Source: Isoetes taiwanensis (lineage: Eukaryota; Streptophyta; Lycopodiopsida; Isoetales; Isoetaceae). Taken from it: a stretch of 64,000 nt of DNA. The DNA lies in the NCBI GenBank assembly GCA_021234155.1, contig JAJEKV010000011.1:12439255-12503254 (forward strand). The letters run 5' to 3'. The notes under the pieces were generated by a model that saw only the letters and a list, made by a program, of their open reading frames with translations, ran no database searches and was not told where the DNA came from. Below are positions 1-64,000 of this stretch, one piece after another. The position numbers and the translations under genes are program-made. Position 1 is the first letter of the stretch, and every line of letters starts with the position of its first letter.

Positions 1-600
1 TCACTTGAAAATCTCTAAGCTGGTATTGAAAACCCTGCAATAAGACCATTATATTTATTAGGTCTCCCTTTGCCAAGATCTTCAAGTTTTTTGTATTAAT
101 ATGAGGATGCTTGTCTCAATTGAATTCCACAAACATGCACCCAGATAAAAATTTAATTGCGAAAAATGATACCTCAAAGATAATATTTAACCTATTTCGA
201 TAGGCCTGAATGCTTGCATCAGCTTCTACAATCATATGCTCATTTCGTAATACAAAGTAATGCTTGCTAGGATTTCCTGGGAATGCCACCCCAAGAAGCT
301 CACGGGCACAATCAATTGGAACGTCTGCAGAAAGCAAATAACTGGTTGGTTATTAATGTGTATGCGATACAATTGGACTAACTGGAAAACAGTTATGCTA
401 GTCTATGTATGTGATCAATCTGGCCATTTTGCAAGTAACCCTATTTCGTGAATTAACAGAAAGCATGTGCTGCGAATTCTGGTGTTCAAATATCTACATA
501 ACCACAGTCTAAGTCTATTTCAAGGCTTACATACCTATCAGATCATAATCTTGCTCAAGCTACTCTCCCCACGAAAATACCATTACAGATGCACTAGGAA
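1..600 (-). pseudogene. MED20: MED20-like fragment (Mediator head subunit 20), captured exons
   Basis: MED20 is a head-module subunit of the nuclear Mediator complex, which links transcription factors to RNA polymerase II. On the minus strand, exon 324-173 reads PSKHYFVLRNEHMIVEADAS and ends in NIIFE at a GT donor. The next exon, 34-1, begins GFQYQLRDFQ. In plant MED20 the corresponding stretches are PSKYYFVIR, VVEAD-SIQ and FEGFQYQLGDFQ, so both the match and the intron position fit. About eight residues after SIQ are missing. An upstream piece (about 590-531) splices in frame into the 324-173 exon but holds a TAG stop. Only the middle of the protein is present; N-terminal exons are absent and the C-terminal part would lie off the window. 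Introns are retained, which implies capture at DNA level. It abuts transposon sequence at about 590. MED20 identity rests on remembered family sequence. A real host gene invaded by the element is the alternative. Confidence 0.7.
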
Positions 601-3015
601 TCTCTTCTGATGGCTTCCAGTTGCAGTAGCATTTATCTCTGCAACATAATTAAAATGAGGAAGACCACAGAAAAATACAAAAAAATAAATCATGTATGTG
701 GCATCGGTACTTACTTGATACGACTGCATTTAGTTCACTATCCAAATTTTGTTTTGGAGTCTCCACACCGTCAGCAGCTGGGATTGACTTAGGAGTATCA
801 AATGGGGTGAATTCTAGGTATAACCGGGAGGTATCTTGCAGTCTCATAACTGATCGAGGCGTGGATAACTGTTGGATATCCTTGGTCTCAAATTTCTGCA
901 ATTCTGCAAGCACTAAGTCAGTAGACCTGTGACAACATCAGTAAACATTAGTTAAGGCACTTACTTGTGTCTATTGGTTCTTCTGGTACCACTCGAATAC
1001 CAAAAGCCAAAAGCCATGTCTCAATCATAATGTGGGCACAACTAGGGCTGCAGCAGTTTCTAGAGTGTCTGCAAAACAAATTCAAAATCAATAGAGTCTT
1101 TAGACGAGGGTTAGAGATGATAATATTTACCTCAAATGGTGTGATAGACATGGAATGTGATACTGGTGACTGTTCTGCTATCACAACTGGCAACATTTTA
1201 CCCTCCCATTTCAGACAACGTCCACAAAATGGACAACCTTCATCACCCTCTTCTTACGCCTCGGGAAGCATTGGAAGTCACGATCTAAAGGAGTGTCATG
1301 ACCACTACGCTCGAGAAAAAAATCTCAAATCTTTGCATTCGAGGTAGCAGCTCCAAAAGATAAGTCTTCACATGCGTTTAGCTCAATTTCAGTTTACGCT
1401 AATTCCTTTTTAATTGATTCAGCCCGGCAACACCGTACCATTTAGCTCTTCATCCTTTAGTTAAACTTATAACCCGAACACCCTCTGCTGCTTTCGGATT
1501 TGCTGTCATGATTGATTGCCATCTGTGCAAATCAGCTCTAATTTCTGATGTTTTATGCTCCATCAACTCAATCTTTCTTTTGATATCATTTTTCCTATCC
1601 TCGTTTGCTTGCAATCGTTGCTTGCATCTATCAAACCTAGCTGATGTTGCAGCCAACCATTTCTTTCACAAGTCTGCCATAGTCTGCAAAACAAAACACT
1701 ACGTATATGTCAGCCTCCTAACATAGTAAGCCACGTACTGATGAAAAACCACAATCACACACCACACAACACAAGGTAGTCTCTACACACCACCACATAC
1801 CACACCACACAACATACGCTGCACAGTACACACCACACACCACGTTGTGGTGGTGGTGTGTGTGGTGGGTGGTGGTGGTGGTGGGGGGTGGGTGGTGGGG
1901 TTTGGTGGTGGTGGTGGTGGTGGTGGGGTGTGTGGTGGTGGTGGAGTGTGTCGTGGGACATGGTGGATTGTGGTGATGGGGTGTGGTGGTGGGGTGTGGT
2001 GGTGTGGTGGTGGTGGAGTGTGGTGGTGGTGGAGTGTGGTGTGGGACATGGTGGAGTCTGGTGGTGTGGTGTGGTGGTGGTGGAGTGTGGTGGTGGTGGA
2101 GGAGTGTGGTGGTGGTGTGTGGTGTGGGAGTGTGGCGGTGGGAGATGGTAGAGCGTAGTGGTGGGAGATGGTGGGGTGTGGTGTGGGACATGGTGGATGC
2201 CAACAACTCACCACCACCACACATACCTCATCTATCATTCTGGCATCCATTGCACGAAATGCCCCACAGATGGTATCATAGAGACAAAACATGACAATAC
2301 AGCCAACATGATGCAAAATGGTAGTAGACATACCTGATTCTTGAAGTGGATTTGATGTTACCTTTTCTGTGTTGATAGAAACAATCTAGATCAAGCTTGA
2401 GATTTTTTTCTGTTGTAACACAACTAATAATTGAACATACCTGCAATGGCATGTTTTGGTCTCAGAACATTGCTCTGCTTTTCTGTTTTGATTGTGAGTT
2501 CAGATTGAATGTGTTGCCTAGAGGAACCTGATTTGGTTTTTTTTTTCCTATCATCTTCATCATCCCTGTCACTTTTACTATTTTCCTCCTCGTCAGGTTG
2601 GATTTGCCTATGCTTTCTCTTGGGTCTAGAAGAACTGGCCTCCACTTTCTCATTGGGAGTTTTATAATAATCTGAGAAGCTCTTCCAATTAACAGCCTCC
2701 CCCTTTATATGCAGATAATAAGCCGCTGCCCAGGTTCCAGGAGCCATTCCACCCTATGTATGTGGCTTCCCTGTAATTCTTTTGTAAATTTGCATGAACT
2801 CTTTGTATTGTTCATTGCTCAGATTCTTCAACCTATACAAGAAAACATATGCCTTAATTTTTCAGTTTGAACAAAACATTTGGGGGAAAATACCTGTAGC
2901 CAGATTTATTTGGAACTCTGTCATCCCAAAGCTTCTTTAGATCTTCGTGGGGCACAATCTCTTGTTTGAGGAGAGATTTCATCGTGTAACCAGTGGCGTT
3001 CAATTCTGACTCCAT
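600..3015 (-). pseudogene. Cargo gene of element L, 5' half: N-terminal domain, coiled coil, damaged RING-like finger
   Basis: Start ATG at 3015 (MESELNATGY). Exon 1 is 3015-2894, with donor CAG/GTATTTT. Exon 2 is 2832-2442 and shows W-A-A-A-Y-Y-L-H-I-K-G followed by V-N-W, then a Lys/Arg/Asp/Glu-rich linker. A TAG interrupts exon 2 just before the GGMAPG stretch, and the same stop is present in element A. Short exons follow near 2370-2330 and 2290-2227, then a 543-nt intron made largely of GTG satellite (2226-1684). The next exon, from 1683, is a Lys/Glu-rich coiled coil. The RING-like region near 1290-1135 has lost two bases relative to element A, which breaks the Cys-His core. A further exon ends near 700 and joins the MED20 part. 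Function as a whole is unknown; the gene is clearly non-functional. Confidence 0.6.
1755..2215. repeat. GTG/CAC-rich satellite inside a cargo-gene intron
   Basis: Mostly GTGGTGG-type repeats on the + strand, with recurring GGAGTGTGGT and GGGACATGGTGGA words. It lies entirely in the intron bounded by exon ends 2227 and 1683 on the minus strand. Long Gly/Val/Trp-rich or His/Thr/Pro-rich frames here are artefacts of the repeat. Copies occur at 34320-34745 and, in opposite strand sense, at 28504-28965. Confidence 0.9.
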
Positions 3016-3236
3016 TAGGGTTCAATCGGCAAGAAGCGGCAAAAAAACAGAAGAAGAGGTGATTATTTCTTAATTCAAAAAGGTGGACAATGACGTACTG
3101 ACGCTCATTAATTCGCACTCCCGCAATCTCCGCTTCGGTATGCACCACCCGATTCTACCACAAAGGTGGTGCCAAAATGTGGCGTTAAAATGTGCGTTTT
3201 TGATACACCACAGCGTGCTTTTACCCTTCATACCTT

Positions 3237-8736: not shown

Positions 8737-8936
8737 ATCGGCAGCATGCCGAGAATCTCTCTTGTATACATAATTGAGCCAAGATAATTTAAGTGAAATT
8801 AAAATTCCAAGGCCACCACCTATGAAACAACATTTCAACCATGAAAGAATACATAAAAATTTATTTCAACCTTAGAAAAAAAAAATCCATTCCAATAGGA
8901 ATGTCTATGCATTTCTATGACCTATGTGTCATGTTA

Positions 8937-9330
8937 TGTTGGAGCCATGTGGCATGTATGAACCTAGATGGCATGTTTTACCCTAGGTGGCATGTTTGAG
9001 CCTAGGTGGCATGCTTGAGTCTAAGTGGCATATTTAAGGCACGTGGCATATTTGAGCCTATATGGTATGGTTGAGCCAAGGTGGCATGGTTGAACGGAAT
9101 GGGGGAAGCCATTCTTGCTTCCCCCTGACCTACAGAATCCGGGAGCGCGACCACGTGGTATGTTTGAGACTAGATGGCATGTTAGACCCTAGGTGACATG
9201 TCTGAGCCTAGGTGTTATGCGTGAGCCACGGTGTGAGCCAAGGTGGCATGTTTGTCCCACGTGGCATGCTTAAGCATATTTGAGCCTAAGTATTACATTT
9301 GAGCCACGTGAGATGCTTGAGCCCAAGGGC
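8937..9330. repeat. Diverged ~20-bp tandem repeat of GTGGCATGTTTGAGCCTAG type
   Basis: About 15 imperfect units such as GGTGGCATGTTTGAGCCTA and GTGGCATATTTGAGCCTA run through the stretch, interrupted near 9097-9160 by a short hairpin with a GGGGGAAGC stem pairing with GCTTCCCCC. The same arrangement appears at 37680-38080 in the duplicate. No gene is visible here. Confidence 0.75.
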
Positions 9331-9372
9331 ACAACATTTCAACCATAAAAAATACGAAATCAAATTAAACCC

Positions 9373-10330: not shown

Positions 10331-10569
10331 ACAGGCTCCAGAATGGGCCAGATCAGAATTGCTCATGGTCCCCAATGTGAAGAAAAAGAAGTTGTGTGCA
10401 TACTAGAATTATAACCGATGTCTTTCCACAAGCGAGCTACTATAGAGAATCGATCAAGGACGCTTCATGGGTGAGGACATTCATGTCATGAAGATTCCCA
10501 AATTGTCCCAATAAACAAAGGTTGACAAATGCATGTCCAGTTCCCTCAATATCTAAACATCCATGGAGG

Positions 10570-22859: not shown

Positions 22860-25218
22860 CGAGGTAGATCTGGTCTTACTTGGCTCTGGATCTGATTCAA
22901 TTTTTTGTGCAGGAGGTGTACCTATTCAAGGACGGTCGGGCAGTTGCCAAAGGATCCGTGGGAGACAGGGAACGATGCCATTTTAAAGACATCCCAGATT
23001 GACTTGTGAGTGTTGGTGTTCTAGCTGTGTTTGAGGGGCACTATATTCTCTCCTGGCCTTCCAGATGCAAAAACATTAGGAGAGGCCCTGGAGTCCTTCA
23101 TACTCTAGAGGGAAGGTAATATCCACGACTCCAATGTGGTGGATGTGCCATCGACATCCAAAAGACAGACAGCGCGTGGGAAGTAGCACAAACACTATGG
23201 CGATAACAAGGTACACGCTACTTGAGATAGACTGCAAAATTTGGCACTCTTGTGATGCCATCCCTGCAGGAAAGGGCTTTATATCCTTCACTGGTCCAGA
23301 TGATGCAGTATATGATCAGTTGTTGGGTATGAAGACCGTAGGAGTGTCTGTTACTGAGGGCTTTCCCCTTCCGACTGAGGTGAATTTCCGGTGTCAGGCA
23401 TGTTTGACAGTGCCTAAAGTAGGCATGCTTGTGAGGTGGAATAATGATCCTGTTAAGGTTATGGGAGTGAAGGGGTATGATATTTTAAGTGCAACACCAG
23501 TAGAACAATGATACGACATCAAGCCAGGGTAGCTCGGAGCTTGAGAAGCATCCGCAATACGAGAAGCGTAAATAGACCTTCCATTTTCGTCAGTCAAAAA
23601 AGGTACTAAAGCCTCCAAAGATCGATCGGCTCACAACCAAAGAAGCCATCTTGAGGTATAGGAAGACCATGTGTTGCAAACAGAGATGTTGTGAGAAATT
23701 CACTAGGGATCAAGCTATAAACATGCGAAAGGATTTCCTCGCCATGAAATCGAGTGACAGGGTCACTTTTGTGTATGATATGTTAGGCAACAATATGAAG
23801 GGCAGAAGGGTCCATCGACTAGTCTTGCAAGGCATGATTTGTCTGTGAGAGAGCTTGGTATCTTGGTCTTGGGATTTCAAAATCGGGGTATCTCAAGTGG
23901 AAGGCACAATTCCGCTTTGGTGCTCGCAAAGCTGAGCGTGGTCATGGAAACTGTACTTCCACAGGTATCTGATATGGATATGGTAGCTCGGGGGAGTGGC
24001 CTTGAACGTTGGTCTTGGTGGACTAGCATGGGTGTGTGAGAAGGGCAAACTAATAGCATGGCAAGGCAATTAAATGGCAATTGTAATGGTTATGGTCAAA
24101 TAATATCTATTAAGCCAAGCTAATCTCCTTGATAATATCCCAGTCCAAAAATAGCAGTTTTAAAAAGGCCAACTTCAAAAGATCATATCTCATGAAATAT
24201 AAGTCAGATTATGGCGATCTAGGGCTCATTGGAAAGCTCTCAGTGTCTAGTTTCCGGATTAGGTTCGCCCATTTGCTAACTCCTCGTGGATCGTGAGATA
24301 TCGCCAAAAGAGTGGCCGTGGGTCAGACTGGACTGCACCACCAAGATTGCCTTTTTGGAAGAGAACCAAGCTCCTTGCCTAGAAATTGCCATTGCCTTCT
24401 ACCTTGCTGTTGATTTGCCAGATCTCAACATCGGTTGGCCCGGTTGGGTGGAGAACTGCCATTAATTGCCTTGTATTGAGAATCTTCCTCTAGTTTTGGT
24501 GAACTAGAGCCGGAACATTCTGAGCTATTGGTGTAGTTTATATCAATTGGTGTAAATCGTATCTTATGTTCATTGGATCTGTGCTTATTTGTCTTATTAT
24601 TTCATACTTAGATCATTTTGTCATTGCTAACGGCTTATTCTGTGGATTCTGTAGCAAACCTAGACGGTTTACAGGCTATAAGATTATGATTTGTCTGAAG
24701 AGACCTGGTATTCTATTTAGAGGAGATAAAATGTATGGTTTATTGTTGTGAACCATATCAGTATCCTCGAGACTATGTGTGTATCATTCATGACAAAATG
24801 GGTCAGGCAAAGACTATGATTCCAAAGTTGCTACAATCTGTGAAGTCCCTTTGGAGACTAGATAAGCTGAAGACTTCATTGACAGGTGCACTTACTCACT
24901 GCCATGGAAGAGGGTCCAATGGAAATTCTACTTTGGATCTGCGGTCCGACGACTCCAACTTCCACGTGGGTTCCTTGAATAGTATTCTGAAAAGGTTGGA
25001 ACTGCCTCATGAGTTTGCAGGAGGCCATCTTGCATTGTTTGATCCATCAGTCCCAGATTGGGCAAGGCCTTGCGTGACACCACCGCGCTAGCGTCCAAGT
25101 TGTCGCTATCTAGCAAGAGCATCCCCGTTGACCTAATGAAGCGCCTCCCTTGCACACTGATGTTGCAACTAGACAACGCATTTGGACAAAACAAAAATAG
25201 GTATGTATTTATCTTTCA
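22860..25218 (+). pseudogene. DUF7869-type transposase-like gene, 5' half (interrupted by element A)
   Basis: Downstream of the minisatellite an open frame (23134-23511, DAIPAGKGFISFTGPDD) is followed by the Cys-rich N-terminal region (23600-23830: CCKQRCCEKFTRDQ, KDFLAMKSSDRVTF), then after a frameshift LGISKS and HGN motifs. A second coding stretch, 24735-25091, reads YVCIIHDKMGQAKTMIPKLL, SLTGALTHCHGRGSNGN and ALFDPSVPDWAR. It then shifts frame into SLSSKSIPVDLMKRLP and MLQLDNAFGQNKNRYVFIF at 25215. LDN-x-x-GQNKNR is the family's conserved core. Element A is inserted directly after it, and the protein resumes at 35780. Several frameshifts and a stop near 23570 show the gene was already decayed. 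It is probably the transposase of an outer element. Confidence 0.7.
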
Positions 25219-25240
25219 GGGTAAAAGCACGCTGTGGTGT
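25219..25240 (+). repeat. Left terminal inverted repeat of element A
   Basis: Begins GGGTAAAAGCACGCTGTGG and is 22 bases long. Its inverse is at 35754-35775. Target duplication TTCA is at 25215-25218. Confidence 0.9.
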
Positions 25241-25809
25241 TCCAATTCGGCTATCCCCCCTATCCCCCCCAAAATGTGGCGTTGCATCCACCACTTTTGT
25301 GGTATAAAAGTATAATTATGGCACTGCTCAGCGGCCGTTATTTAAGAATAGAGTCCCAATTTGTGGGGGAAATTCTAATTTCAAAAACTGAAATTCAAAT
25401 TCAAATTCCTATTCTTTGGCCCCTTCCTTTTCTTTGCCTGCGTCCTGTTCTTTGGCTCCCTCCCTGCTGCAAGCTCCAATCCATTGTGGATATGGATGTC
25501 AATGAGGTAATCTGTCCACAAACTGGCATTTCAGACAGGAGAAAACGAAGAAGAACCAAGGAACAAGAAATGTTGAAGAAAAGACGCCAGAGGAAAAGAA
25601 GAAGAGAAAAAAAATTGGAGCTTGCAGAATTGGCAGAAGGATCCGGTCCATCAAGAAGTGCAAGCAGTAAACGCTGTATTGTCCTTAATTTGCTAACGTC
25701 TTTCCATAAACAGACCAAAAGAATGGAGGATAGCACAAAGAAAGAAATTTTACTTGAGTTTTTGAGGGATAAAACATTGGAAAAATTCATAGGTGAAGAA
25801 TTAAAGGAT

Positions 25810-26834
25810 GTGAAATAGCCTCCCTCTTGCACTCACACATCCCCGTGTCTTTACCAAATGGAGACAAGCAGGGTTCATTATAGTTGGACATCTTTGGGAT
25901 GGTGTGCGGTGGCTTTCCTGGTCCCGTTTTAAGGGAATGATTCAGAATGCAGGAGAAGGGGACAGGAAGATCTTTCGGGAAATACGTAGGACTTTGAGTA
26001 CCCTCTCTGGATTGGACGGCCCAAATGACAGATGGTCTTGCAAGGGGGAAGAGAAATATGTTGTTAGCACTATCTACTATCTCCTCTGCCCAGAATCCCC
26101 CCTAAAGGCTGCTAACAAACTAGGTATGGACGTCATGCTCACTTCACAGTTACTAGTCAATTCATGGTCAAACATCTGCTCCAAAAGATTGCAATTTTTT
26201 AGATGGCTAGCCCTACAGGGTGGAATTAGCACTATGGAGGTGCTCCATCAAAGGAGACTACTCGCTATAGATAGCTGCCCACTTGGCTGCAACAATACGG
26301 AAAACCTCTCTCACCTATTTTTTTGTCCCAAGATCCTGGACTTTTGGAAGTGGGCATATCCTCTCATCGGTATTACACCAGGACAATGTACTTGGCCTCA
26401 GATACTACTCGCAACTGATAGAGACATAGTATCAGCATCTCTGGTTAATATAGTACTCTGGGCAATCTGGAAACACAGATGTGGAATTGCTCTTGGTGGG
26501 CAGCTCTTTTCTTTAGACAGACTAAAGAACATCTTCAATTTGGAGGTGGCACTTATGGCTTTAGCCCACCATCGAAAGTTTGGACGTTTCTACAACACAG
26601 CTTTGGACAGGATTGGCAGGGTTCAAGGCTTCTATATGTTCTTCAAATGTCACTGGGTAGATGACGATGATCCTGGGGATGATCCGAGTCTCAACTTACA
26701 AAGACTGGCCCTTGTTTAGATTTGATACTTGCTATTCATTACTTATGGTTCCTACATATAGGAAATATGTATTATAATACCTATTAATATATACCATATT
26801 CTTACCCTCAAAAAAAAAAAAAAAAAAAAAAAAA
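25810..26834 (+). mobile_element. 5'-truncated LINE nested in the element A transposase gene
   Basis: The target duplication GAATTAAAGGAT is present at 25798-25809 and 26835-26846, possibly two bases longer with the preceding AA. The insertion ends in a poly(A) run (26811-26834). Removing it rejoins the transposase reading frame exactly in phase across Glu-Leu-Lys-Asp. It therefore inserted when that frame was still intact locally. Confidence 0.95.
25904..26719 (+). pseudogene. LINE ORF2 C-terminal end with zinc-knuckle (zf-RVT-like) domain
   Basis: A 271-codon open frame, uninterrupted, covering the region after the reverse transcriptase. It contains FFRWLALQGGISTMEVLHQR, then CPLGCNNTENLSHLFFCPK (C-x3-C-x7-H-x3-C knuckle), VNIVLWAIWKHR and a C-terminal acidic stretch WVDDDDPGDDP. 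This domain follows the polymerase in plant LINEs and probably binds nucleic acid. The start codon of this frame is incidental, because the element is truncated 5'. The openness suggests a fairly recent insertion. Confidence 0.8.
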
Positions 26835-27779
26835 GAATTAAAGGATTTGGAAGCCAAGAGCATCGTCATAAGGAGCCTCTGGGACTCCATGCAGACTGTC
26901 AAACTCTCTACCAGCAATGACTGCCTAGCAGCCAAGAATAGCTGCCTTGCAATGTCTGTACCACGCCGTGCAGATTCTGAAACAAGTGACAAAATCAGCC
27001 AGCGAGATCTTGGAAAGGTATTAGGTGTTCACCCAAGAAACCTGCAAAAGGCAAAGAAAAAGAGGGAAGAGATCGATTACAATGGTGGGAAATGGGTTTC
27101 TTACAAGAGGGCTAAAAGATTCGATGCAATTTCAGATGAACATATAGAAAAGATTCAAAAATTTTGGATTGAGAACACCAGAGTGTCTCCTAACACAAAG
27201 GATGTTAGAACTAGAAGATTGGAGAGAAATATAAGAGAAGAACATGCTGCCCACTATCTGGAGGAATCACATGTTAGTTTATTTCTGTTATTCATGTTTT
27301 CTTAGTTATGGTGCTTAGTGTGGTGGTGCATGTGGTGGTTATTGTGTTGTACAAATGATTGTGGTGTATCAGATGCGAAGATGTGTGTAGTTGACTCTAG
27401 TCCGAAATGCAATATTTAATATTTGGAATATTATTAGAACATGACGAATTGAGTACTCCTTTTACCGGGTGTGTGTGCAGTCTAAAAATATTTGAGAATG
27501 ATAACTAACTGATCCTAAGATACAAATTTTTGTTGAATAAAGATAATTTTTTGTCAGATTCAAGCACAGCTCTGTTGGAAAGTATAATATATTAAAAAAG
27601 GGATCTTACAAAATTTGGCTTTACAAAATTTGGCTTTCCATTGAAAGCTCATGCAGAAACTAAATTTACATGCATTTCCTAAGCAACAAGAAATGCCGGT
27701 ATGACTGCTCGAGAACCGGTGCATCAAAATTATTGTTTTCTCGCACTAAAGCATCTAAGCTTTTCTGCGGTCATCCTGC

Positions 27780-28167
27780 AATTTAACAGATGAGGTTTGC
27801 CGGTGCTTCCTCGTGCATCCTCCGGTGGTAAGAACGCAACCACCGATAAATCCCGGCTGCTGCGAGTCGAGGCGGACAAGTGACAGAACAAATAAACCCG
27901 GTGCCCTTGCGGCGAAGATGTAACATAAGCTCATGGACCTTGTCTAAGAGCTCACATCCTATCAATCGACTCAAAGCACGCGACCATTGAAGGCCCAAAG
28001 ATCCACCTGTTGTATGCCTTTAGGTTGGATTCGAAATCAGCAAAGAAGGTGGATTTAGGCATATCCACCTTCATAGATTGATCACGAGCCCTGTTTAACA
28101 TGTGCCGAATGCCCTCCTCGCTCACCCTACAATAGCCATAGTGATCTCTGAACATCGCTCCTACCAT
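27780..28167 (-). pseudogene. Unrecognised coding-like stretch on the minus strand inside element A
   Basis: 28167-27952 reads MVGAMFRDHYGYCRVSEEGI, then MPKSTFFADFESNLKAYNRW and FESID. After one frame shift near 27960 a second frame continues IGCELLDKVHELMLHLRRKG and GTGFICSVTCPPRL. The two frames together look like one protein of at least 120 residues with a single frameshift. I do not recognise it. It lies within the large gap of the transposase gene, so it may be another captured gene fragment, but chance openness is possible. Confidence 0.3.
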
Positions 28168-28365
28168 GTTGCCGGAATGAACTTGTTCGAATTGGGAATG
28201 AAAAGCAAAAAATCAGACGTAGGAACAGGATTTAGGACCCAGATCCTTTTCTAATGATTAGAAGAGGAATGTAATTATTATCAGGGTGTATGAATTTCAA
28301 AAGTGTTTATGAGAGCAGGCTAGGCAGATTTTTTATGTCAGATGAAATAGGATAAAAGTGATGTG

Positions 28366-29105
28366 ATGTGATGTGTGGTGTCGTGATGGTGTGGTGTGGT
28401 GTCTTGATGGTGTGGTGTGGTGTGGTGTGGTGTGGGTTGCGTTATGTCCATGGTGTCATGTGGGTGTGAATGTATGATATGTGTGGATTCAATTTTATTT
28501 ATTCTCCCCCCTCACCCCACCACACCCCATCATCTATCCCACCACCATAGACTACCGCCACATCTTTGCGACCACCACATTACCACCACATGCACACACA
28601 TCCCACCACATCCCACGCCACACCCCTCCACCACCACCACCACACTCCATCACCACACTTCACCACCAACACACTCAACCATGTACCACACCACACCCCT
28701 CCACCACCACCACCACACTCCACCACACCACATCACACCACAATCCACAACACCACACCACACCACCACCACTACACCCCCAACACTCCACCACCACCAC
28801 ACTATACCACACCACACACCACACCCCACCACCACACTCCACCACACCACATCATACCACCACACACCACTACACACACTACCACCACACCACACACCAC
28901 TCCACCACCCCCACCACCACACTCCACCACCACCACTCCCCCACCACCACACTCCACCATTTGGTGTATGGTGTGTGATGAATGGTGTGGTGTGTGGTGG
29001 GGTGTCATGTGGTGTGTGGTAATGTACACAGCACTAAGGTGCTGGCTCAGTGAATATGATGAGTGTGGGGCATGGTATGGTGCATGGTTTGGTGTGGTAT
29101 ACACA
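28366..29105. repeat. Satellite tract of element A with strand switches (GTG, then CAC, then GTG)
   Basis: 28366-28440 is GTGGTGTG-rich, 28504-28965 is CACCACCAC-rich with CACTCCACCACCACC and CCATGTACCACACCACA words, and 28965-29105 is again GTG-rich. The outer parts can pair with the middle. The long His/Thr/Pro-rich open frames here are repeat artefacts. Confidence 0.85.
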
Positions 29106-31024
29106 TCCTAACAGTTTTAGTGTTCATTTCATGCATGATATTGTTCAAGAGGTTTTACGGACCAACATCCGTAAATTAAGATTCGCCTTCGAGCTTTTGA
29201 GAAGCTAAAACCCCGGTTTGTTGTGAAATTGAAGGACTTCAATAGTTGCTGTTGCATTCAGCACGTGAGGATGCAAATGCTAGTGGATGGACTCAATGGG
29301 ATGAGAACCAAACATCCGAAGAATTGCACTTGCACCTACGATGTTTGTAGATCACATGAACTTGGTCAATGCAGGGGCACACCAAAGATAAAATTGCAAG
29401 TACTGAAGCTTGTGGAGATCTATATTGTGTCCAAAGAGTGAATTAGATGAGTTTCACAAGAAGGCGTGCATCCTTGGAAATTGTGAGTCGTGGTGGAATC
29501 AAGAAGTTTCGCACTGTCCCATGGAATGAAGTGGCGAGGGAAAGTGAAATGGGAGTACATTGACTATGAAAAGACAACGCCCCGAAGTTCTCGGTAGGAG
29601 ACCCGACTCATCAAGACAATGAGACGTAACCCAAGGAGCTTCGGATAAACCGAAAAGAGCGTCTAGAAATCTTTCCAATTGCATAATTTCAAAAATGTAC
29701 CAATGGCAGGCAAAACAGTTTAAGGAGCTTCTGGAGAATCTCCCAGCAGATGCATGTCTCTCGGTAGTGGATTTTGCAGAGAGCTATACATTCAAGGAAC
29801 AAGAGGAGGTGTAGTCGATGCGCTGGGTCAATAACCAGATTACCATTTTGGTTCAAATAACATATCAAGACGACTCGATTGGCGGAATGAGATTATCAAG
29901 GAAACACATTACTATGTATCAGATGATAGGGAACACGATACTTTGTTCGTGCAACACTGCTTCATGAAGCACCACAAATATCTGGAGCACAAAGGAAGGG
30001 TGCCAAAGAGACATTATGTGTTTTCAGATGGTGCAGCATCTCAATTCAAGGCTTCTAGACCATTTTACTTTGTGGCTAGGTACACAAACGACACTGATGT
30101 CTATATGATGTGGAATTCTTTTGGTTCTAACCACGGGAAAGGTGAACACGATGGCAAAGCTGCTGAGTTGAAGAGATGATTAAGACAACTGCAATTAAAA
30201 TACAACAGCATAAAATTGGATAATGCTCATGAAGTGGTAGACGTTGCCAAAGAGATATTTACTTGTGGAACATCCGAGTGGATGAACACATCTGAAACCA
30301 GTAAGAGGAAGAATATAAAAAGGTTCTTTTGGGAAGTCAAGGTGGAGGATATAGATAGAAAGAAAGCATGGGGTGCAGAAAGGATTTTGGACACTAGGCA
30401 GATCCATTGTGTACATGCATTCAATCCTGAATCTCCATTGTAGTTGCACACGAGGGAACTTTCATACTTCAGCCTCTTGCTTGGATGGCATGTGGGGCGG
30501 TTATTGTGTGAACAAGCACTATGTTGATGATTGGAAACTTCAAGTTATTGTACCATCCTCCAATGTGCATGCTGACATTGAGGACCGTAAATCCAGCAGG
30601 TCCTTGTTCTCCTCCAATCCCACGATGTTAGCAGAGGCACTTAGAGTTGGTGATAATTTTGCTGTCGTTGCTCCGAAAGGGAATGATGAGGGTTCTGAAT
30701 TTTGGATTCTGATGTGCACAAAACCAAAATGGATAGTGGAGAAAGACTTCCAACTCAATGGAACATGGTACCTCGCCGGTAATAGTGTCATAGAAGGTAT
30801 TACAAGAAGGGCGCAAGATCAACCGTCGACTATGATCTTTGCGAAAGATGCCTTAGGCATAGTATTCACAACACAGATCTGTGCAATCAGACTTCACATG
30901 CCACCAACTAAACGTCAAAACAGGACTATATATAGGCTGGATCCTTTAGATGAGGAGAAAATTTTACAGAATTTACGCGAAGTTCTTTCTGATGATGATG
31001 AAATGTAAAACCATTCTGTAGTTT

Positions 31025-32201
31025 TCAGAACTCATGTGAAGTTTTGTGCTTCAAATTGTGAAAATGAGTTTGTCTTGATTTCTTTTGAAGATCTGAATTC
31101 TTCCTCAAACACTTGATTCCTTTGTTTGTGAGATGAATTGAATATGAATTTTCATTGAAATGAATCGAGGTTACAATAACAATTATGTACATAAGAAAGA
31201 TATACAGTGATTTAAGTACGAGGTGACTCATGCACCTACATACTTCCCAATACATATGTTCCTCTCGGTTCGAAATTTTTGTTGCTTCTAATCTTAAAAC
31301 TTCAAGCATGAACACTCTAACATCAACTAGATCCCGGTCTGAAATGTCCACAACCCGCGCTTAACCACACTTTGTCAATAACATGAGTTTGGTTTGTCTG
31401 CTGCATTTAAGTTGACTTACTAGATCGGGGCAACAATATATTCACTCCTTTCAAGTACCCCTCACAAATTTGTGCATAAACGAACATCTTGCGGCAGGCC
31501 ACATGAATGACCATCGGTTTGAAGAGGCGCTCGAAATTTTCACAACATCCGAGGTTGTAAAGCTGAAATTATTGTTTCCAAGCAATTCCAAGAACCTCGC
31601 ACTCAAAGTTTGTTGTCATTGTGCCACAACAAAGAAAATGCAATGAGCAAGCACTAACCTCTCAATATGTGCCGCCCATGCAAGCCCGAAGCTATCAAAG
31701 TGATATATCCCTGGTTTATATCTCTGTGCGAGACACGCGTGGCTTACAATCAGAAAACAGGTCCAGTGATGTCCATCACAAGCAGGCAAAAACATGTACT
31801 GGCACTTATCCAGATTCACATGTTTCCTTATTGTTTTGTAACTATTTGTGTCCTTGGACAATGTTGAGTGAAAAAGAGGGTCAAAGAAATGAAAGGGATG
31901 GCTCATTCCTTGGAGAATCAAGTAGTATTCCATGTATCTGCAAACATATGCATATGATGGCACAATCCTGATGATCACAAATCAGATGAAAGTATCACCT
32001 TGAGAAGAGGAGGATCAATTGATCATTGAACCATTGTGTATCAGCTTCCAAAATTTTGATGTCGGTGGAGCTAATCACGACAGTTTCAGTTCCACTCAGC
32101 ACCACTTCCAGATGTGTATTTGGCTTTAGATAGTCAGGGACTGCCGAAGCTCTATCATCTCTAGTTCTAAACACACACGAGAACATTTGCTCACAATCCA
32201 T
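31025..32201 (-). pseudogene. Ulp1-type (peptidase C48, SUMO-protease-like) domain of the element A cargo gene
   Basis: Ulp1 proteases process and remove SUMO; many plant transposons carry captured relatives. Exon 32201-31999 ends QWFNDQLILLFS; a 61-nt intron (31998-31938) with donor GTGATA and acceptor TTTGCAG joins it to YMEYYLILQGMSHPFHFF. Then DKCQYMFLPACDGHHWTCF supplies the catalytic-type His-Trp, and IYHFDSFGLAW the Asp. The catalytic Cys region is not clear: downstream (31610-31480) a Cys-rich stretch reads in several frames. 31348-31025 carries VDISDRDLVDVRVFMLEVLR, a plausible C-terminal end. In transcription order it follows the NIF domain. Broken frames after 31616 suggest a pseudogene. 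Confidence 0.7.
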
Positions 32202-32349
32202 TCAAATATTTTAAATTGAAAAACTACAACACATATCATAGAAATTTTTTTACTTATATTGACTTTCAAAGAGTTTTACAAGATTCATTTATGAAAATAC
32301 TTGTCGAGCATTTTCATGCGATTCTTGTGACTCTTCGAGAATCCCACAT

Positions 32350-33115
32350 GTTCCACATTTGATGTTCCTTCACATAAGCCGGCACACTTTCTCGCAGCCG
32401 TAAGTCCCTCCACCATGGTTTGAGTTGCTCCAAAAGGAAATTGGAATCCAACCCGTCCGGAGCAAAACTATTTGGACATATCATTGTGTTCTACCGGGTT
32501 GGCGTAACCCTTATATCTCACCGGGCTGTCATCTATCAACAATGTGTTTGTCACCTGGTATCTCCAAAATTTCAGATACACTTTGGACAGATCCTTAAGG
32601 AAAATTGGCTTATTAACCACTTTTAATTTTGTGTTGGTGCAGTCATCCTGATTCCAAATAAAAAGAAATCTGCCCTTATATTCCTGCAGCAATTTTCTCA
32701 TCAACAAGTCAACATTACTCTTAGCCATGCTGGACCACAATGCAATCTCAAATTTTGAAAAACACCATTCTAAGAACTCCTGTAATCCAGGCCTGGAAAC
32801 TGCTAACTTTTGATTGTTCAATTTCTGGACGGTCACTTCTGGCTCGGCCGATGCAGGGATCCTCACTTTCAAGTCATAAGACTTGCCTAAAACTCCATTA
32901 AAATCCAGAACAAGGAGAATTTCAGTTAACCTCTTGGTTTTTCTTGGTTGAGGTTGTATTGGACTCGTTGAGCAGTCTGCATCTTGTCTAGGATCCGGGG
33001 TTTCTTTGTCAACTTCATCACCTGCATCCGCATTTGGCTCATGTTCAGCACCAAAACTTTTTTCTGGTGAAGGACCCCGCGCAGAATGAATCTCAAGGGA
33101 ATTAATTCCCCCCCC
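32350..33115 (-). pseudogene. NIF/FCP1-like HAD phosphatase domain of the element A cargo gene
   Basis: The frame is open from about 33115 to 32468. An acidic Pro-rich lead (DAGDEVDKETPDPR) is followed by EILLVLDFNGVLGKS (HAD motif I, D-x-N instead of the usual D-x-D), RPGLQEFLEWCFSKFEIALW then SSMAKSNVD (motif II region), and NTLLIDDSPVRYKG (motif III-like acidic pair). This is the layout of NLI-interacting-factor/FCP1 homology domains, which act on phosphoserine in proteins such as the RNA polymerase II tail. A stop follows, after which LLEQLKPWWRDLRLRE and VPAYVKEHQMW continue in another frame. That C-terminal extension is also found in element B. The missing second Asp of motif I makes catalytic activity doubtful. 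Confidence 0.75.
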
Positions 33116-33119
33116 CTAA

Positions 33120-35546
33120 AACAGATGCACTAGGAATCTCTTCGTGATGGCTTCCAGTTGCAGTAGCATTTATCTCTGCAACATAATTAAAATGAGGAAG
33201 ACCACAGAAAAATACAAAAAAATAAATCATGTATGTGGCATCGGTACTTACTTGATACGACTGCATTCAGTTTACTATCCAAATTTCGTTTTGGAGTCTC
33301 CACGCCGTCAGCAACTGGGATTGACTTAGGAGTATCAAATGGGGTGAATTCTAGGTACAACCGGGAGGTATCTTGCAGTCTCATAACTGATCGAGGCGTG
33401 GATAACTGTTGGATATCCTTGGTCTCAAATTTACGCAATTCAAGCACTAAGTCGATGACTGTGACAACATCAGTAAACATTAGTTAAGGCACTTACTTGT
33501 GTCTATTGGTTCTTGTGGTACCACTCGAATACCAAAAGCCAAAAGCCATGTCTCAATCATAATGTGGGCACAACTAGGGCTGCAGCAGTTTCTAGAGTGT
33601 CTGCAAAACAAATTCAAAATCAATAGAGTCTTTAGACGAGGGTTAGAGATGATAATATTTACCTCAAATGGTGTGATAGACATGGAATGTGATACTGGTG
33701 ACTGCATTCTGCTATCACAACTGGCAACATTTTACCCTCCCATTTCAGACAACGTCCACAAAATGGACAACCTTCATCACCCTCTTCTTCTGCCTCAGGA
33801 AGCATTGGAAGTGCAGGATCTAAAGGAGTGTCATGACCACTACGCTCAGAAAAAATCTCAAATCTTTGCATTCGAGGTAGCAGCTCCAGCAGTAAGTCTT
33901 CACATGCCTTTAGCTCAATTTCAGTTTCTGCTAATTCCTTTTTAATTGATTCAGCCCAGGCAACACTGTACCATTTAGCTCTTCATCCTTTAGTTCGCTT
34001 ATAACCCGAACACCCTCTGCTGCTTTCGTATTTGCTGTCATGATTGATTGCCATCTGTGCAAATCAGCTCTAATTTCTGATGTTTTATGCTCCATCAACT
34101 CAATCTTTCTTTTGATATCATTTTTCCTATCCTCGTTTGCTTGCAATCGTTGCTTGAATCTATCAAACCTAGCTGATGTTGCAGCCAACCATTCCTTCAC
34201 AAGTCTGCCATAGTCTGCAAAACAAAACACTACGTATATGTCAGCCTCCTAACATAGTAAGCCACCTACTGATGAAAAACCACAATCACACACCACACAA
34301 CACAAGGTAGTCTCTACACACCACCACACACCACACAACATACGCTGCACAGTACACACCACACAACATGCTGTGGTGGTGGTGTGTGTGGTGGTGGTGG
34401 TGGTGTTGGTGGTGGTGTGTGTGGTGGTGGTGGGGTGTGGTGGTGGGGTGTGTGGTGGTGGTGGAGTGTGTCGTGGGACATGGTGGAGTGTGGTGATGGG
34501 GTGTGGTGGTGGGGTGTGGTGTGGTGGTGGTGGAGTGTGGTGGTGGTGGAGTGTGGTGTGGGACATGGTGGAGTCCGGTGGTGTGGTGTGGTGGTGGTGG
34601 AGTGTGGTGGTGGTGGAGGAGTGTGGTGGTGGTGTTGGAGTGTGGTGGTGGTGTGTGGTGTGGGAGTGTGGCGGTGGGAGATGGTAGAGCGTAGTGGTGG
34701 GAGATGGTGGGGTGTGGTGTGGGACATGGTGGATGCCAACAACTCACCACCACCACACATACCTCATCTATCATTCGCATCCATTGCACCTAAATGCCCC
34801 ACGATGGCATCATAGAGACACAACATGACAATACAACCAACATGATGCAAAATGGTAGTAGACATACCGATTCTTGAAGTGGATTTGATGTTACCTTTTA
34901 CGTGTTGATAGAAACAATCTAGATCAAGCTTGAGATTTTTTTTTTGTAACACAACTAATAATTGAACATACCCGCAATGGCATGTTTTGGTCTCGAAACA
35001 TTGCTCTCTTTTTTTACGCTTTGATTGTGAGTTCAGATTGAATGTGTGGCCTAGAGGAACCTGATTTGGTTTTTTTTTCCTATCATCTTCATCATCCCTG
35101 TCACTTTTAATATTTTCCTCCTCGTCAGGTTGGATTTGCCTATGCTTTCTCTTGGGTCTAGAAGAACTGGCCTCCACTTTCTCATTGGGAGTTTTATAAT
35201 AATCTGAGAAGCTCTTCCAATTAACAGCCTCCCCCTTATATATGCATAATAAGCCATCGCCTGTGTTCCGGGAGCCATTCCACCCTATGTATGTGGCTTT
35301 CCTGTAATTCTTTTGTAAATTTGCATGAACTCTTTGTATTGTTCATTGCTCAGATTCTTCAACCTGTACAAGAAAATATATGCCTTAATTTTTCAGTTTG
35401 AACAAAATATTTGGGGGAAAATACCTGTAGCCAGATTTATTTGGAACTCTGTCATCCCAAAGCTTCTTTAGATCTTCGTGGGGCACAATCTCTTGTTTGA
35501 GGAGAGATTTCATCGTGTAACCAGTGGCGTTCAATTCTGACTCCAT
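33120..35546 (-). pseudogene. Cargo gene of element A, 5' half: N-terminal domain, linker, coiled coil, RING-like finger
   Basis: ATG at 35546 (MESELNATGY), exon 1 to 35425, exon 2 from 35363. Exon 2 carries KEFMQIYKRITGKPH, an in-frame TAG, then the Y-Y-x-x-I-x-G stretch and a Lys/Arg-Asp/Glu linker. The intron 34762-34215 is largely satellite. The next exon begins DYGRLVKEWLAATSARFDRF and is a coiled coil. After a one-base shift ELAETEIELKACEDLLLELL leads to GCPFCGRCLKWEGKMLPVVI and ECSHQYHIPCLSHHLR: C-x2-C followed by C-x-H-x2-H-x2-C. The following exon starts HSRNCCSPSCAHIMIETW, supplying the last Cys pair of a RING-like finger (a possible ubiquitin or SUMO E3). The exon FTDVVTVIDLVLELRKFETK precedes the NIF part. 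Homologous N-terminal features recur in element B. Confidence 0.6.
34320..34745. repeat. GTG-rich satellite in the element A cargo-gene intron
   Basis: Same composition and words as 1755-2215, with small length differences. Relative to the 28504-28965 tract it is in the opposite strand sense, so the two tracts form a long imperfect inverted pair within element A. Confidence 0.9.
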
Positions 35547-35753
35547 TAGGGTTCAATCGGCAAGAAGCGACAAAAAAACAGAAGAAGAGGTGATTATTTC
35601 TTAATTCAAAAAGGTGGACAATGACGTGGCATAAAATTCAAAATAACTGACGCTCATTAATTCGCACTCCCGCAATTTCCGCTTAGGTATGCACCACCCG
35701 ATTCTACCACAAAGGTGGTGCCAAAATGTGGCGTTAAAATGTGCGTTTTTGAT

Positions 35754-35775
35754 ACACCACAGCGTGCTTTTACCC
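35754..35775 (-). repeat. Right terminal inverted repeat of element A
   Basis: Ends CAGCGTGCTTTTACCC and is the exact inverse of 25219-25240. It is followed by TTCA (35776-35779). Element L has the same end at 3236. Confidence 0.9.
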
Positions 35776-36939
35776 TTCATACCTTGTATATCTCGGTGTT
35801 TTCGAGGAGACTGAGTTAGGTTTTATGATGCCTGGCCACACACATGAGGATATAGATGCTATGTTTGGTAATTTTTCATCTTCCTTGAAGAAAGCCGAAG
35901 TGCTAACCATGCCTGAGTTGTTGTATGAATTTCATACGTGCAATCTCAATAAGCCAGTGCCATATCTTGTTGATAAGGTTCCAGATTGGAAAGGTTTCAT
36001 AGAAGGGTACATCCTTGATGGAGAAGATTGATTGACTAGTCACACTGGTCCTCTGACCTTCAGGTTCATTATGAATGGTGACTGGCCTGTCATGTACCAC
36101 AAGATACGTCCTACGTTCGTGGATTGGTTACCTGCTGCAGGAATAAGAACGTGGAAAGAAGGAGAGGATGGAAAACCCTAATGCCATCTGGAAATCCGAA
36201 GATGTTAGCACCTAAGAGCTCGGTGAAAGATCTCGGTCAGCTTCGAAACAATATCCATAAGCATATCCTCCACTGGGTTGCATGCTCGACGAATAATAAG
36301 GGCACTCTAGAGACGGCCAAATATACGGCACAATTTACGTCGACAATTGAATATTGGATGGGACTCTTCTAGCATCTGGGTAACATCACCAATGCGGAAG
36401 GTCCTTACGAGGACTTTTGGCTGCGCACTAGGCAAGATAGACTTGACATACCTGATGTGGTAACCGTGGTGGAGCCAATTGCAAGCATCACTCCTGCTTA
36501 TATTGGTCCATTGAAGGATAATCCCATACCAGAATTCAATCCATTCACGGATTTTAAGAAGGGCATGTTTGTAATGGCGCGCTCTGATGACATCTTGTGT
36601 CCGACATGGGTAGAGTATGCTATAGAGGAACCCCAAATGGATGATAAGAAAGACAACTTCGAGACTATCCAGGTCACTTGGTGGGAGCCTATCCCTGTTA
36701 GAAACCAGGTGTTCCCAGCCAACTATGTGAATTGTTGGAAGAAGAGATGGAGACCGGCGATTGCTGGTGACCGCATTAAGATAGAGAGTATCGACTACGC
36801 TTGGAGTCCTTCGAATAAGAAGAAGCTATCAAAAAACTGTCAAGATTCCTATGCTTATTGCCGAAGCATATGCCCCACTCGCGGGGGATGTATCTTAGTG
36901 TCATGGAAGTGCTTGTTTTATAAAAAGTCCACAAATTAA
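35776..36939 (+). pseudogene. DUF7869-type transposase-like gene, 3' half (right copy)
   Basis: Resumes the gene cut by element A: LVYLGVFEETELGFMMPG, HTHEDIDAMFG, VPDWKGFIEGYILDGED (a new TGA at 36029), DFKKGMFVMARSDDILC, QVTWWEPIPV and NCWKKRWRPAIAGDRIKIES, ending KCLFYKKSTN at 36939. It retains the T-W-W segment missing in the left copy but has its own stop at 36029 and a one-base deletion near 36178. The TAG after EYWMGLF (36371) is shared with the left copy, so it predates the duplication. Together with 22860-25218 this is one gene split by 10.56 kb. Confidence 0.7.
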
Positions 36940-37170
36940 GGTATTGTCCATATTTAATGAAACTGTGCTTATTATGGAGGATTTACATGACATCCAACCT
37001 TCTACCCCTCATTTCGAAGCTTTTACCTATGATTTTGAAGCTTTTACCCCCAATTCTGGTCAGAATTCTTACTGTACCGCAGAACGCAACCAAAGTTGTC
37101 ATCACGTTTCAAGAATGTTTGTTTTGCTGAGTTTTTGGCATGTCAAATGCCTTCGCGCTACCGGGCATCG
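36940..37170. other. 3' flank of the DUF7869 gene; candidate outer-element terminus at 37049
   Basis: Continuous sequence at the position where LINE-L is inserted in the left copy. GAAGCTTTTACC occurs twice, and GCTTTTACCC ends at 37049. Confidence 0.3.
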
Positions 37171-37491
37171 GGGTGAAAGCATGCTAGGGTGTACCATCTA
37201 AAGTACTTTTTAGGGAGTGCGAAACTACCCAGAAAAGTACCCAGCACTGGGTACTGGGAACTTGCATAAATGTCGCAATAAATAATAAGTCTGAGAGTTA
37301 ATTCATTTATTTTAGTCTCTAATAAAATTGTTATCCTATAGTACTATAGATTGACATGTTATTGACCTTCAATTCAAAACTTTCGATTGATTTTAATGGA
37401 AAGAAAAACCAGAAAGTATCAGTTTTAAAAGTACCCAGTGTGGGTACTTTTGAGGGTTCCAAAAGTGGTACACCGTAGCATGCTTTTACCC
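37171..37491. mobile_element. 321-bp MITE, right copy of 8420-8736
   Basis: GGGTGAAAGCATGC at the left end, inverse GCATGCTTTTACCC at the right end, ATCG at 37167-37170 and 37492-37495. It differs from the left copy only by small indels and substitutions, so it is the same insertion duplicated. Confidence 0.85.
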
Positions 37492-37679
37492 ATCGGCAGC
37501 ATGCCGAGAATCTCTTTTGTATACATAATTGAGCCAAGATAATTTAAGTGAAATTAAAATTCCAAGGCCACCACCTATGAAACAACATTTCAACCATAAA
37601 AGAATACATAAAAATTTATTTCAACCTTAGAAAAAAAAAATCCATTCCAATAGGAATGTCTATGCATTTCTATGACCTA

Positions 37680-38080
37680 TGTGTCATGTTATGTTGGAGC
37701 CATGTGGCATGTATGAACCTAGATGGCATGTTTTACCCTAGGTGGCATGTTTGAGCCTAGGTGGCATGCTTGAGTCTAAGTGGCATATTTAAGGCACGTG
37801 GCATATTTGAGCCTATATGGTATGGTTGAGCCAAGGTGGCATGGTTGAACGGAATGGGGGAAGCCATTCTTGCTTCCCCCTGACCTACAGAATCCGGGAG
37901 CCCGACCACGTGGTACGTTTGAGACTAGATGGCATGTTAGACCCTAGGTGACATGTCTGAGCCTAGGTGTTATGCGTGAGCCACGGTGTGAGCCAAGGTG
38001 GCATGTTTGTCCCACGTGGCATGCTTAAGCATATTTGAGCCTAAGTATTACATTTGAGCCACGTGAGATGCTTAAGCCCA
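37680..38080. repeat. Diverged ~20-bp tandem repeat, right copy of 8937-9330
   Basis: Same GTGGCATGTTTGAGCCTAG-type units and the same GGGGGAAGC hairpin near 37856. No gene is visible. Confidence 0.75.
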
Positions 38081-38127
38081 AGGGCACAACATTTCAACCA
38101 TAAAAAATACGAAATCAAATTAAACCC

Positions 38128-39066
38128 TTAAAAAACAAAATTCATTTGAAAGAGCATTTCTAGGAACCTAGGTGGCATGTTTGAGCCTAGGTTATAGGAT
38201 CTTAACCGTGCAAGGCTATTCCATGTTCCGTCATATTTCGCTCTTGCCATAGGGGGTGCAAGGAGGTTAATGCCATCTCGGATTATTGCAGCCTTCAACA
38301 TATTTACTTTGTTGCAAGCTTCCTTCATTAGGAAGGCAACATGCTGCAAAAAACTAGGACATTCCTGGATGGGTAATTTCACATGATTCACGGATTCATC
38401 TACACTTACCAACAACATGCTGTTGCCTAGTGGCGTGACGTTAAAACAACTATCTATGCATTATAAGCATAGGCGCTCCTCTCTACGACCTCCAGTTCAG
38501 GAATACTAATGTCCATTGCATCACCACAATCCAACATCACCAATGTGGTCTCCATCACATCAAATTTACATCACTATTAAGGGAGCTCAAGTTTGCTATA
38601 CTACCCTTCCTGTTCCCACCATAATGCCATATGTTGGTAACTCTTCATCTTCAGTCTAATCCTCGTGATGATCATCAACATGGATTGGCGAATTAAATGG
38701 AGATTGGAGCGTATAAGTTGCTTCTTTATCAACTTTCTCTCTCCGTGAGAGTGACATTGGTGATTCTAAGGGAACATGTTCATCAGCATCATCCTCAAGC
38801 AAAGCTTCGCCCAAATACGCACCCTCCTCGAAGCTAGCTGCAAGAAACTCCTATCTTGATTGTTAATAATCTTCAATCTATTTTGTGTTCTCTTCCTTGT
38901 ACTTGCAACAAGCAACACGTAAGTTCTTCAACAACAACAAACGCGTCATACCAAAATTAACGCCAAAGTTACAGCTGCATAGCAATAGTATTGAGCTTTC
39001 TAATTGAGGTTCCTGTTTTTTGGAGGCATGATTTTTAGATTTTATTAATAATAGAAAATGGTACAC
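38128..39066 (-). pseudogene. Unrecognised coding remnant, right copy of 9373-10330
   Basis: 38418-38128 keeps the LLVSVDESVNHVKLPIQ frame with FLMKEACNKVNMLKAAIIR. Upstream, 39066-38878 is an open frame (RLLLLKNLRVACCKYKEENT) followed by the acidic FEEGAYLGEALLEDDADEH stretch. The copies agree on the first block, which supports former coding, but stops break the whole. No family recognised. Confidence 0.35.
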
Positions 39067-63840: not shown

Positions 63841-64000
63841 ACCGTGTAAAGTCTTGCAATTGAATGCTTGCTCATTTGCTCACATCTGCTTTTTCCAACC
63901 TCCCAAAACACCCTTTCACAATTCGATTCCTTGGCCCTTAAAACCGCACAAAAAGCCGTTTACGCGACTACACCGGCATGCCATTTTGTTTTCTCTGCTC

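Follow-up and report, generated by a model that had tools for sequence, protein, structure and literature searches.

The 64,000-nucleotide stretch of the Isoetes taiwanensis genome analyzed here (contig JAJEKV010000011.1, positions 12,439,255 to 12,503,254; hereafter the window) carries at 25219-35775 a single element bounded by terminal inverted repeats (TIRs), which is 10.56 kb long including an L1-like insert. We conclude with high confidence that this element belongs to a high-copy lineage of TIR DNA transposons comprising several families, in which common termini (GGGTRAAAGYAYG), a 4-bp target-site duplication (TSD) and a DDD/E-type transposase are combined with a convergent second gene region of coiled-coil, RING-like and NIF-like segments, that a Ulp1-like part is present in two of the families (family A, that of the window, and family B), and that the second gene probably serves as an accessory maintained by selection. 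A plant DNA transposon lineage whose RING-NIF second gene is conserved and selected, a Ulp1-like part being added in two of its families, looks new. The coordinates of all features are collected in Table 1.

Element ends, target-site duplications and empty sites

A reading of the window made from the sequence alone (the sequence-only reading) had proposed 22-bp TIRs flanked by TTCA, and both were found to be exact at the two ends of the element. Assuming equal base use, about 7e-5 inverted pairs that match exactly over 22 bp and lie no more than 20 kb apart would be expected in the window by chance. The Isoetes taiwanensis genome searched comprised 1,658,258,908 bases in 1110 contigs. Allowing up to one mismatch, the 22-bp end gave 308 + 303 matches genome-wide, while the reversed pattern used as a control gave 0 + 0. 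Among the first 100 end matches listed there were 25 adjacent plus/minus pairs, 18 of which were spaced 5-20 kb apart; the TIR pair is not unique to this locus. Eight full comparison copies (L041-L048), picked to fit one 10-kb piece, measured 9.2-9.9 kb and had the same layout throughout; over aligned columns they were 90-95% identical both among themselves and with the window copy. Some other end pairs of the window family span more than these copies.

For analysis of TSDs, a sample of 20 end pairs was assembled from 17 of the 18 listed pairs spaced 5-20 kb (the window copy being left out) and 3 pairs obtained through end searches. The 4-bp duplication seen in the window recurred in these other copies, with an exact 4-bp TSD in 18/20 and three of the four letters matching in the other 2/20. 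As a control, the left flank of one copy was compared with the right flank of another, and agreement was observed in 5/380 combinations. Flanks were common to 2 of the 20 pairs, leaving 19 independent sites. The TSDs of the window family were A+T-rich and varied, with no constant word, and TTAA accounted for one of the 18 exact duplications.

Using the joined flanks without the element as query, 594 first-look candidates and 40 scored matches were obtained, of which about 33 covered the full query. Six paralogous empty sites were fetched and aligned, and every one carried a single TTCA at the insertion point. The target is a member of a repeated DUF7869 gene set; a single-copy host gene as target was ruled out, since the gene is repeated in the genome. 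With respect to the coding frame of the target, the proposal that its protein resumes across the insertion did not survive comparison with the paralogs: 4 bases are absent from the window copy near the insertion site and 21 more elsewhere, and the frame does not simply resume.

Transposase

A search of the genome with the transposase protein returned 11,454 first-look candidates, of which 86 were scored, giving 133 matches. Among the scored candidates the main group was approximately 76-96% identical to the query, and others were 63-71% identical. Counting only those rows of alignment A3 in which the position is covered, the aspartate of VVDF was conserved in 11/11, that of SDG in 12/12 and that of HDG in 11/11. 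They are spaced D(84)D(40)D, a glutamate two residues before the last aspartate is also conserved, and these motifs suggest a transposase of the DDE/D type. Helix-turn-helix matches in exon 1 were weak and below cut-off.

Close to the end of the window, a distant relative of the C-terminal part of the transposase was observed at 63415-63873 on the minus strand (29% identity, E 7e-11).

Convergent gene region

The second gene region lies on the minus strand, convergent to the transposase gene, and reads in order two N-terminal exons, a coiled-coil-like segment, a RING-like finger and a NIF domain, followed by a short frame that is conserved and, last, by the Ulp1-like part. The RING-like, NIF-like and Ulp1-like parts that had been read from the window were all recovered, and were also present in the related family B. 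The NIF domain of the window scored 51.8 bits against PF03031 (cut-off 21.8), and its nearest chain in the PDB was UBLCP1. In the window the RING-like finger shows the first six metal ligands only, the final cysteine pair not being located, and it is colinear with the RING-H2 finger of a family C element (L065) and with the match in a family B element (L114). With respect to the Ulp1-like part, the Pfam C48 match was below cut-off (E 0.039), the nearest PDB chain was SENP5 (E 0.0087), and a candidate His-Asp-Cys triad was visible when the family A copies were combined.

Related families

The family B transposase is approximately 64% identical to that of family A over the second exon. One family B element, on contig C1019 (fetched loci L060 and L114), is complete at 13,457 bp, with TIR GGGTGAAAGCATGTTGTAGTGG and TSD GCCA. 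Its cargo is convergent and lies at a greater distance, none being detected at E 0.01 in the first 10 kb examined. Compared with the window cargo, L114 matched in the NIF domain (41% identity, E 5e-25), the RING (9e-6), exon A (3e-9) and part of Ulp1 (0.009). The second family B locus (L115) matched in the NIF domain (51%, 2e-47). It also matched in the middle frame (1e-7) and in a Ulp1 frame (33%, 9e-13) that contains QHW, HFDS and WSCGP. Against PF03031 the NIF domain of L115 scored 53.4 bits and that of L114 gave no match. The right end of the second element was not found. A miniature inverted-repeat transposable element (MITE) with ends GGGTAAAAGCATGTTAGGG and its own 4-bp duplication, AAGC, was observed within the left TIR of the complete family B element (L060:886-1221).

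A genome search with the NIF domain gave 3263 first-look candidates, of which 150 were scored; 96 of these 150 rows had an E value of 1e-19 or weaker, and they were widely scattered. Six NIF loci were fetched. At L064 and L065 a related transposase lay in convergent orientation to NIF, at L066 and L068 NIF was present with no transposase match, and L067 and L069 looked like host genes. For the family represented by L065 (family C), a search for the ends that tolerated two mismatches gave 256 + 250 matches, against 0 for the control, and among the first 100 ends listed there were 22 plus/minus pairs less than 20 kb apart, mostly spaced about 7.6 kb. A 4-bp TSD was present in 10/10 examined of these 22 pairs (control 0/90) and also in 2/2 other two-ended copies. 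The family C transposase is 47-50% identical to that of family A in its core and approximately 30% identical in its C-terminal part. Its convergent gene in L065 encodes a complete C3H2C3 RING-H2 finger, the Pfam match to which was below cut-off (E 0.00056), and a NIF domain matching PF03031 with 75.9 bits (E 3.8e-21). Considering the first 150 matches of each list, NIF and the family C transposase lay within 6 kb of each other at 15 places, 14 of them in convergent orientation, while three shifted controls gave 0 each. Across families A, B and C the transposases are 30-65% identical and the cargo has kept its place and orientation; the cargo is ancient.

NIF frames were also observed at L066:885-3948, L068, L081 and L082. 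Long frames without domain matches lie alongside in L066 and L068, and one of these, judged by eye, carries a motif like that of methyltransferases dependent on S-adenosylmethionine. None of the known termini was present within the 6.5 kb fetched at the L066-like loci.

Selection and altered NIF residues

For NIF, the ratio of nonsynonymous to synonymous substitution rates (dN/dS) between subfamilies was 0.20-0.29 for family C, and the L064-like set gave 0.21-0.32. Comparisons within subfamilies gave 0.44-0.79, apart from a single pair with few changes that reached 1.76, and between loci of the L066-like set the ratio was 0.10-0.26. For the comparison of families A and B, in which dS was saturated, the proportions of nonsynonymous (pN) and synonymous (pS) differences were 0.35 and 0.81 for NIF (161 codons) and 0.43 and 0.79 for Ulp1 (110 codons); the transposases of the two families had a dN of 0.20-0.24, dS again being saturated. 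The transposase core of family C gave a dN/dS of 0.11-0.15 when L065 was compared with L070 and L073. These values indicate that the transposase and NIF, and for families A and B also Ulp1, were under constraint as the families diverged, whereas individual copies decay once inserted.

The catalytic motif of NIF/CTD-type phosphatases (CTD, C-terminal domain) is DxDx(T/V). All four host-like NIF frames (L067, L069, L086 and L087) retain DxD, whereas 20 of the 22 transposon-like frames have DxNG; 8 of these 20 have an adjacent transposase, 8 were assigned by similarity and 4 are L066-like, the mobility of the last being a candidate only. The other two transposon-like frames, those of L114 and L115 in family B, have YYNG, the first aspartate being gone too. 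In a NIF tree the 20 DxNG rows stood apart from the four host rows with support of 88/95, which is not decisive. Since the fold is constrained while the catalytic residues change, a binding role is suggested, and the NIF domain would more likely serve to bind other molecules than to dephosphorylate them.

Relationship to known superfamilies

Our best guess from described features is that Sola is the known home of this transposase. Sola elements are described with a DDD transposase, a 4-bp TSD, TIRs of 11-1124 bp and sizes from 2 to more than 15 kb, and occur in the moss Physcomitrella (Sola1) and also in bacteria (available portions of PMC10741241 and PMC9033089). Compared by description only, the present lineage resembles them in its 4-bp TSD (18/20 and the window copy in family A, 1/1 in family B, 10/10 in family C), the 22-bp TIRs of family A, the 9.2-9.9 kb size of the eight family A copies fetched, its putative DDD-like motif and its seed-free plant host. 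It differs in its cargo, the same portions of the Sola descriptions mentioning no RING, NIF or Ulp1. The sequence-only reading had known of no described plant superfamily with this combination. That claim is weakened as far as termini, TSD and size are concerned, all of which the Sola descriptions fit, and with so fitting a home the proposal of an entirely new superfamily lacks support in its present form. As for the cargo, no RING-NIF(-Ulp1) combination on a transposon was found in the published literature searched by cargo parts, most subscription papers and Repbase lying outside that search.

It is rather doubtful that the transposase founds an undescribed superfamily separate from Sola, the 4-bp TSD being a coincidence of stagger length. 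This would be consistent with the lack of a credible match in Pfam (E up to 10), NCBIfam, PHROGs or the PDB, and with scans of IMG/VR and GTDB contigs, which returned 54 and 84 stretches and no confirmed relative even though Sola has been described from bacteria too. However, the contig scans used strict short patterns, and Sola as described agrees with these elements in the length of the TSD, the range of TIR lengths, element size and the group of hosts. The missing profile match itself says little because, to our knowledge, there is no Sola model in Pfam.

Other known systems share single features with these elements. Ginger1 has a 4-bp TSD and, in many families, a Ulp1 domain, there fused to the transposase (PMC2836005, in the part available). 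In contrast to its CCGG/CCGT duplications, TGTNR ends and Gypsy-like integrase, the TSDs here are varied and the ends are GGGT, and Ginger was rejected on these grounds together with the absence of an integrase match in Pfam. The Kyakuja-Dileera-Zisupton (KDZ) and TET/JBP transposons of fungi are alike in having a cargo enzyme common to several transposon families (PMC12730594, in excerpt). Kyakuja, Zisupton and Dileera differ in their TSD of 7-8 bp and their dioxygenase cargo, and KDZ was rejected, as the TSD here is 4 bp and no KDZ profile matched in Pfam. A KDZ model does exist in Pfam, and the comparison with superfamily profiles that had been suggested, with KDZ and hAT among the families looked for, produced no match. 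Plant Mutator-like elements that carry Ulp1 likewise place a Ulp1-like protease on a DNA transposon (PMC2836005), and differ in a TSD of 7-12 bp (PMC10741241) and in their transposase, as far as the accessible parts of these sources go. With respect to hAT, Mutator, CACTA, PIF/Harbinger and Tc1/mariner, no transposase profile matched in Pfam at the same threshold and the TSD is 4 bp, and all five were rejected; their TSD lengths are other than 4 bp. We know of no NIF cargo on Mutator-like elements. Both piggyBac and Kolobok have TTAA as their target, and they were rejected given the single TTAA among the 18 exact TSDs. A Polinton or virus origin was also rejected, since none of the frames that were scanned resembled a capsid or polymerase.

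Alternative explanations

Several observations weigh against a lineage with a DDD/E-type transposase and a selected second gene. No known transposase profile matches, the DDE/D label rests on motif order, and AlphaFold2 models of two window pieces were poor, with predicted local distance difference test scores of 47-49; the proposal of a DDE-like transposase is thus upheld in the order D(84)D(40)D, as in a DDE/D core, and not by a profile match or a usable structure. The RING and Ulp1 matches fell below Pfam cut-offs, and the family B Ulp1 frame had no match in Pfam (E 1) or the PDB (E 0.1). The NIF frames were drawn from a list sorted according to how well each scored as NIF, a choice that favors conserved frames, and several dS values exceeded 1. 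In family C, comparison of the transposase with L074 gave a dN/dS of 0.38-0.49 (98 codons), and the RING gave 0.43 and 0.77 (two pairs only). The remaining points would also suit a second gene that is passive cargo, made of captured host fragments without function: a codon-position test within the window family gave no signal in any coding segment, all of them evolving neutrally there; neither L073, which is a complete element of family C, nor the fetched L064 locus yielded a Ulp1 match; and the transposon NIF domain has lost the catalytic aspartates of the phosphatase motif. We nevertheless regard passive cargo as very improbable. The order RING, NIF, middle frame and Ulp1 is the same in families A and B, and RING and NIF recur in family C, while NIF had the low dN/dS between subfamilies reported above, pN was well below pS for both NIF and Ulp1 between families A and B, and 14 of the 15 NIF/transposase neighbors were convergent. 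The finding of the cargo in family B in particular strengthened the case for a selected accessory and weakened that for passive cargo.

A tentative possibility, to which we give somewhat more credence than to a new superfamily, is that the NIF domain is common to several mobile lineages of this genome and moves between them instead of being inherited solely with one transposase, as TET/JBP does in fungal transposons, where such a parallel is described (PMC12730594, portion available). DxNG frames under apparent constraint occur in the L066/L068-like loci with no match to any of the transposase queries, and the NIF domains of L070 and L073 are 76-77% identical to that of L065 against approximately 88-95% for the rest of the element, which looks like exchange of a module. 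However, the lack of known termini leaves the L066-like loci as candidates only for mobility, and the NIF tree keeps the families together, at a resolution too poor to show transfers. A selected accessory in a high-copy TIR transposon lineage is the explanation that we prefer.

State and surroundings of the window copy

The window copy is dead, its frames being broken. The L1-like insert has its own 14-bp TSD (25796-25809 and 26833-26846) and was found in 0/8 of the other full copies. GT/CA-rich minisatellites occupy mirror positions in the element, at about 28360-29110 in the transposase intron and at 34320-34750 in the cargo gene, and different minisatellites lie next to the transposase exons of family B. 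An open reading frame (ORF) remnant within the transposase intron (27871-28170, minus strand) is better kept in L045 and L047 and has no Pfam match.

Outside the element, a MITE of 321 bp lies at 37171-37491 with a duplicate copy of 317 bp at 8420-8736; it has ends GGGTGAAAGCATGC/GGGTAAAAGCATGC and a 4-bp duplication, ATCG, and is probably a non-autonomous relative. A segmental duplication relates window positions 585-10465 to 33121-39209 at 95-98% identity, broken by other inserts, and includes the right part of the element with its TTCA flank. The second, partial copy of the insertion ends at 3226 with the same TTCA flank as in the main copy. The DUF7869 target gene contains a D..Q.K...H..D.D pattern reminiscent of a transposase core. 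On profile comparison of the transposase with this gene the D..Q.K motifs were aligned together, at E values of 0.59-0.79, without significance.

Table 1. Features of the element, its target gene and its partial duplicate, in window coordinates
Feature	Position	Strand	Remarks
Right part of second copy of the same insertion	585..3226	-	in segmental duplicate; 585-4396 vs 33121-36961, 95.4% identical
Target gene, left part	24699..25214	+	repeated DUF7869 gene; left part by itself E 0.043
Left TSD TTCA	25215..25218	.	single TTCA in 6/6 aligned empty sites
Left TIR	25219..25240	+	exact 22 bp, GGGTAAAAGCACGCTGTGGTGT
Transposase exon 1, basic N-terminus	25492..27268	+	split by L1-like insert; open in copy L044
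L1-like insert, 5'-truncated	25810..26832	+	zf-RVT PF13966 5e-08; poly-A
Transposase intron	27269..29132	+	~1.9 kb; boundaries inferred from copies with intact-looking splice ends
Transposase exon 2	29133..31008	+	Cys-rich segment; D...D(40)D motifs conserved; broken frame in the window copy
Ulp1-like C-terminal part	31403..31573	-	DGHSCGP with candidate catalytic Cys (copies combined)
Ulp1/SENP-like part	31619..31954	-	candidate catalytic residues: His in HHW, Asp in HFDS
Conserved ORF between NIF and Ulp1 parts	31998..32201	-	no domain assigned; in family B too
NIF/CTD-phosphatase-like domain	32468..33115	-	PF03031 E 9.9e-14; DFNGVL replaces DxDx(T/V)
Cargo linker ORF	33244..33483	-	
RING-like finger	33662..33949	-	CPFC...CSHQYHIPC; zf-rbx1 E 0.004, below cut-off
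Coiled-coil-like segment	33934..34215	-	by eye
GGTGT-type minisatellite	34320..34750	.	probably within cargo-gene intron
Cargo N-terminal exon B	34767..35342	-	
Cargo N-terminal exon A	35388..35552	-	present in family B too
Right TIR	35754..35775	-	exact 22 bp, inverted GGGTAAAAGCACGCTGTGGTGT
Right TSD TTCA	35776..35779	.	single TTCA in 6/6 aligned empty sites
Target gene, right part	35780..36939	+	DUF7869, E 9.6e-20

Possible mechanism and significance

In the mechanism that we envisage, the transposase would bind the GGGTRAAAGYAYG ends, cut with its D/D/D(E) site and join across a 4-bp stagger, the last step leaving the TSD that is observed. The predicted convergent protein would most likely modify or bind host or transposase proteins in the ubiquitin, small ubiquitin-like modifier (SUMO) or phosphorylation pathways, and its purpose could be stabilization of the transposase, aid in repair or reduced silencing. 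Ubiquitin-pathway proteases have been proposed by the Ginger authors to act in transposition (PMC2836005, section available), and TET/JBP enzymes are thought to aid the escape of fungal transposons from silencing (PMC12730594, as excerpted). A more far-reaching possibility, which we consider unlikely on present evidence, is that of an undescribed transposase lineage whose selected RING and NIF pseudophosphatase, with a SUMO-protease-like part in two families, would be directed against host control by ubiquitin, by SUMO or by phosphorylation of the RNA polymerase CTD. In this reading NIF would pass between unrelated mobile families of this one genome, and the lineage would be a plant counterpart of the fungal TET/JBP transposons.

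The lycophyte genome studied here holds high-copy DNA transposons that have no matching curated profile. Selection on the second genes of transposons is seldom shown, and in this lineage the RING-NIF gene keeps its place and orientation and NIF is constrained despite altered catalytic residues. These elements provide a testable case of a plant transposon that may itself encode a factor modifying the control that its host exerts through ubiquitin, SUMO or phosphorylation.

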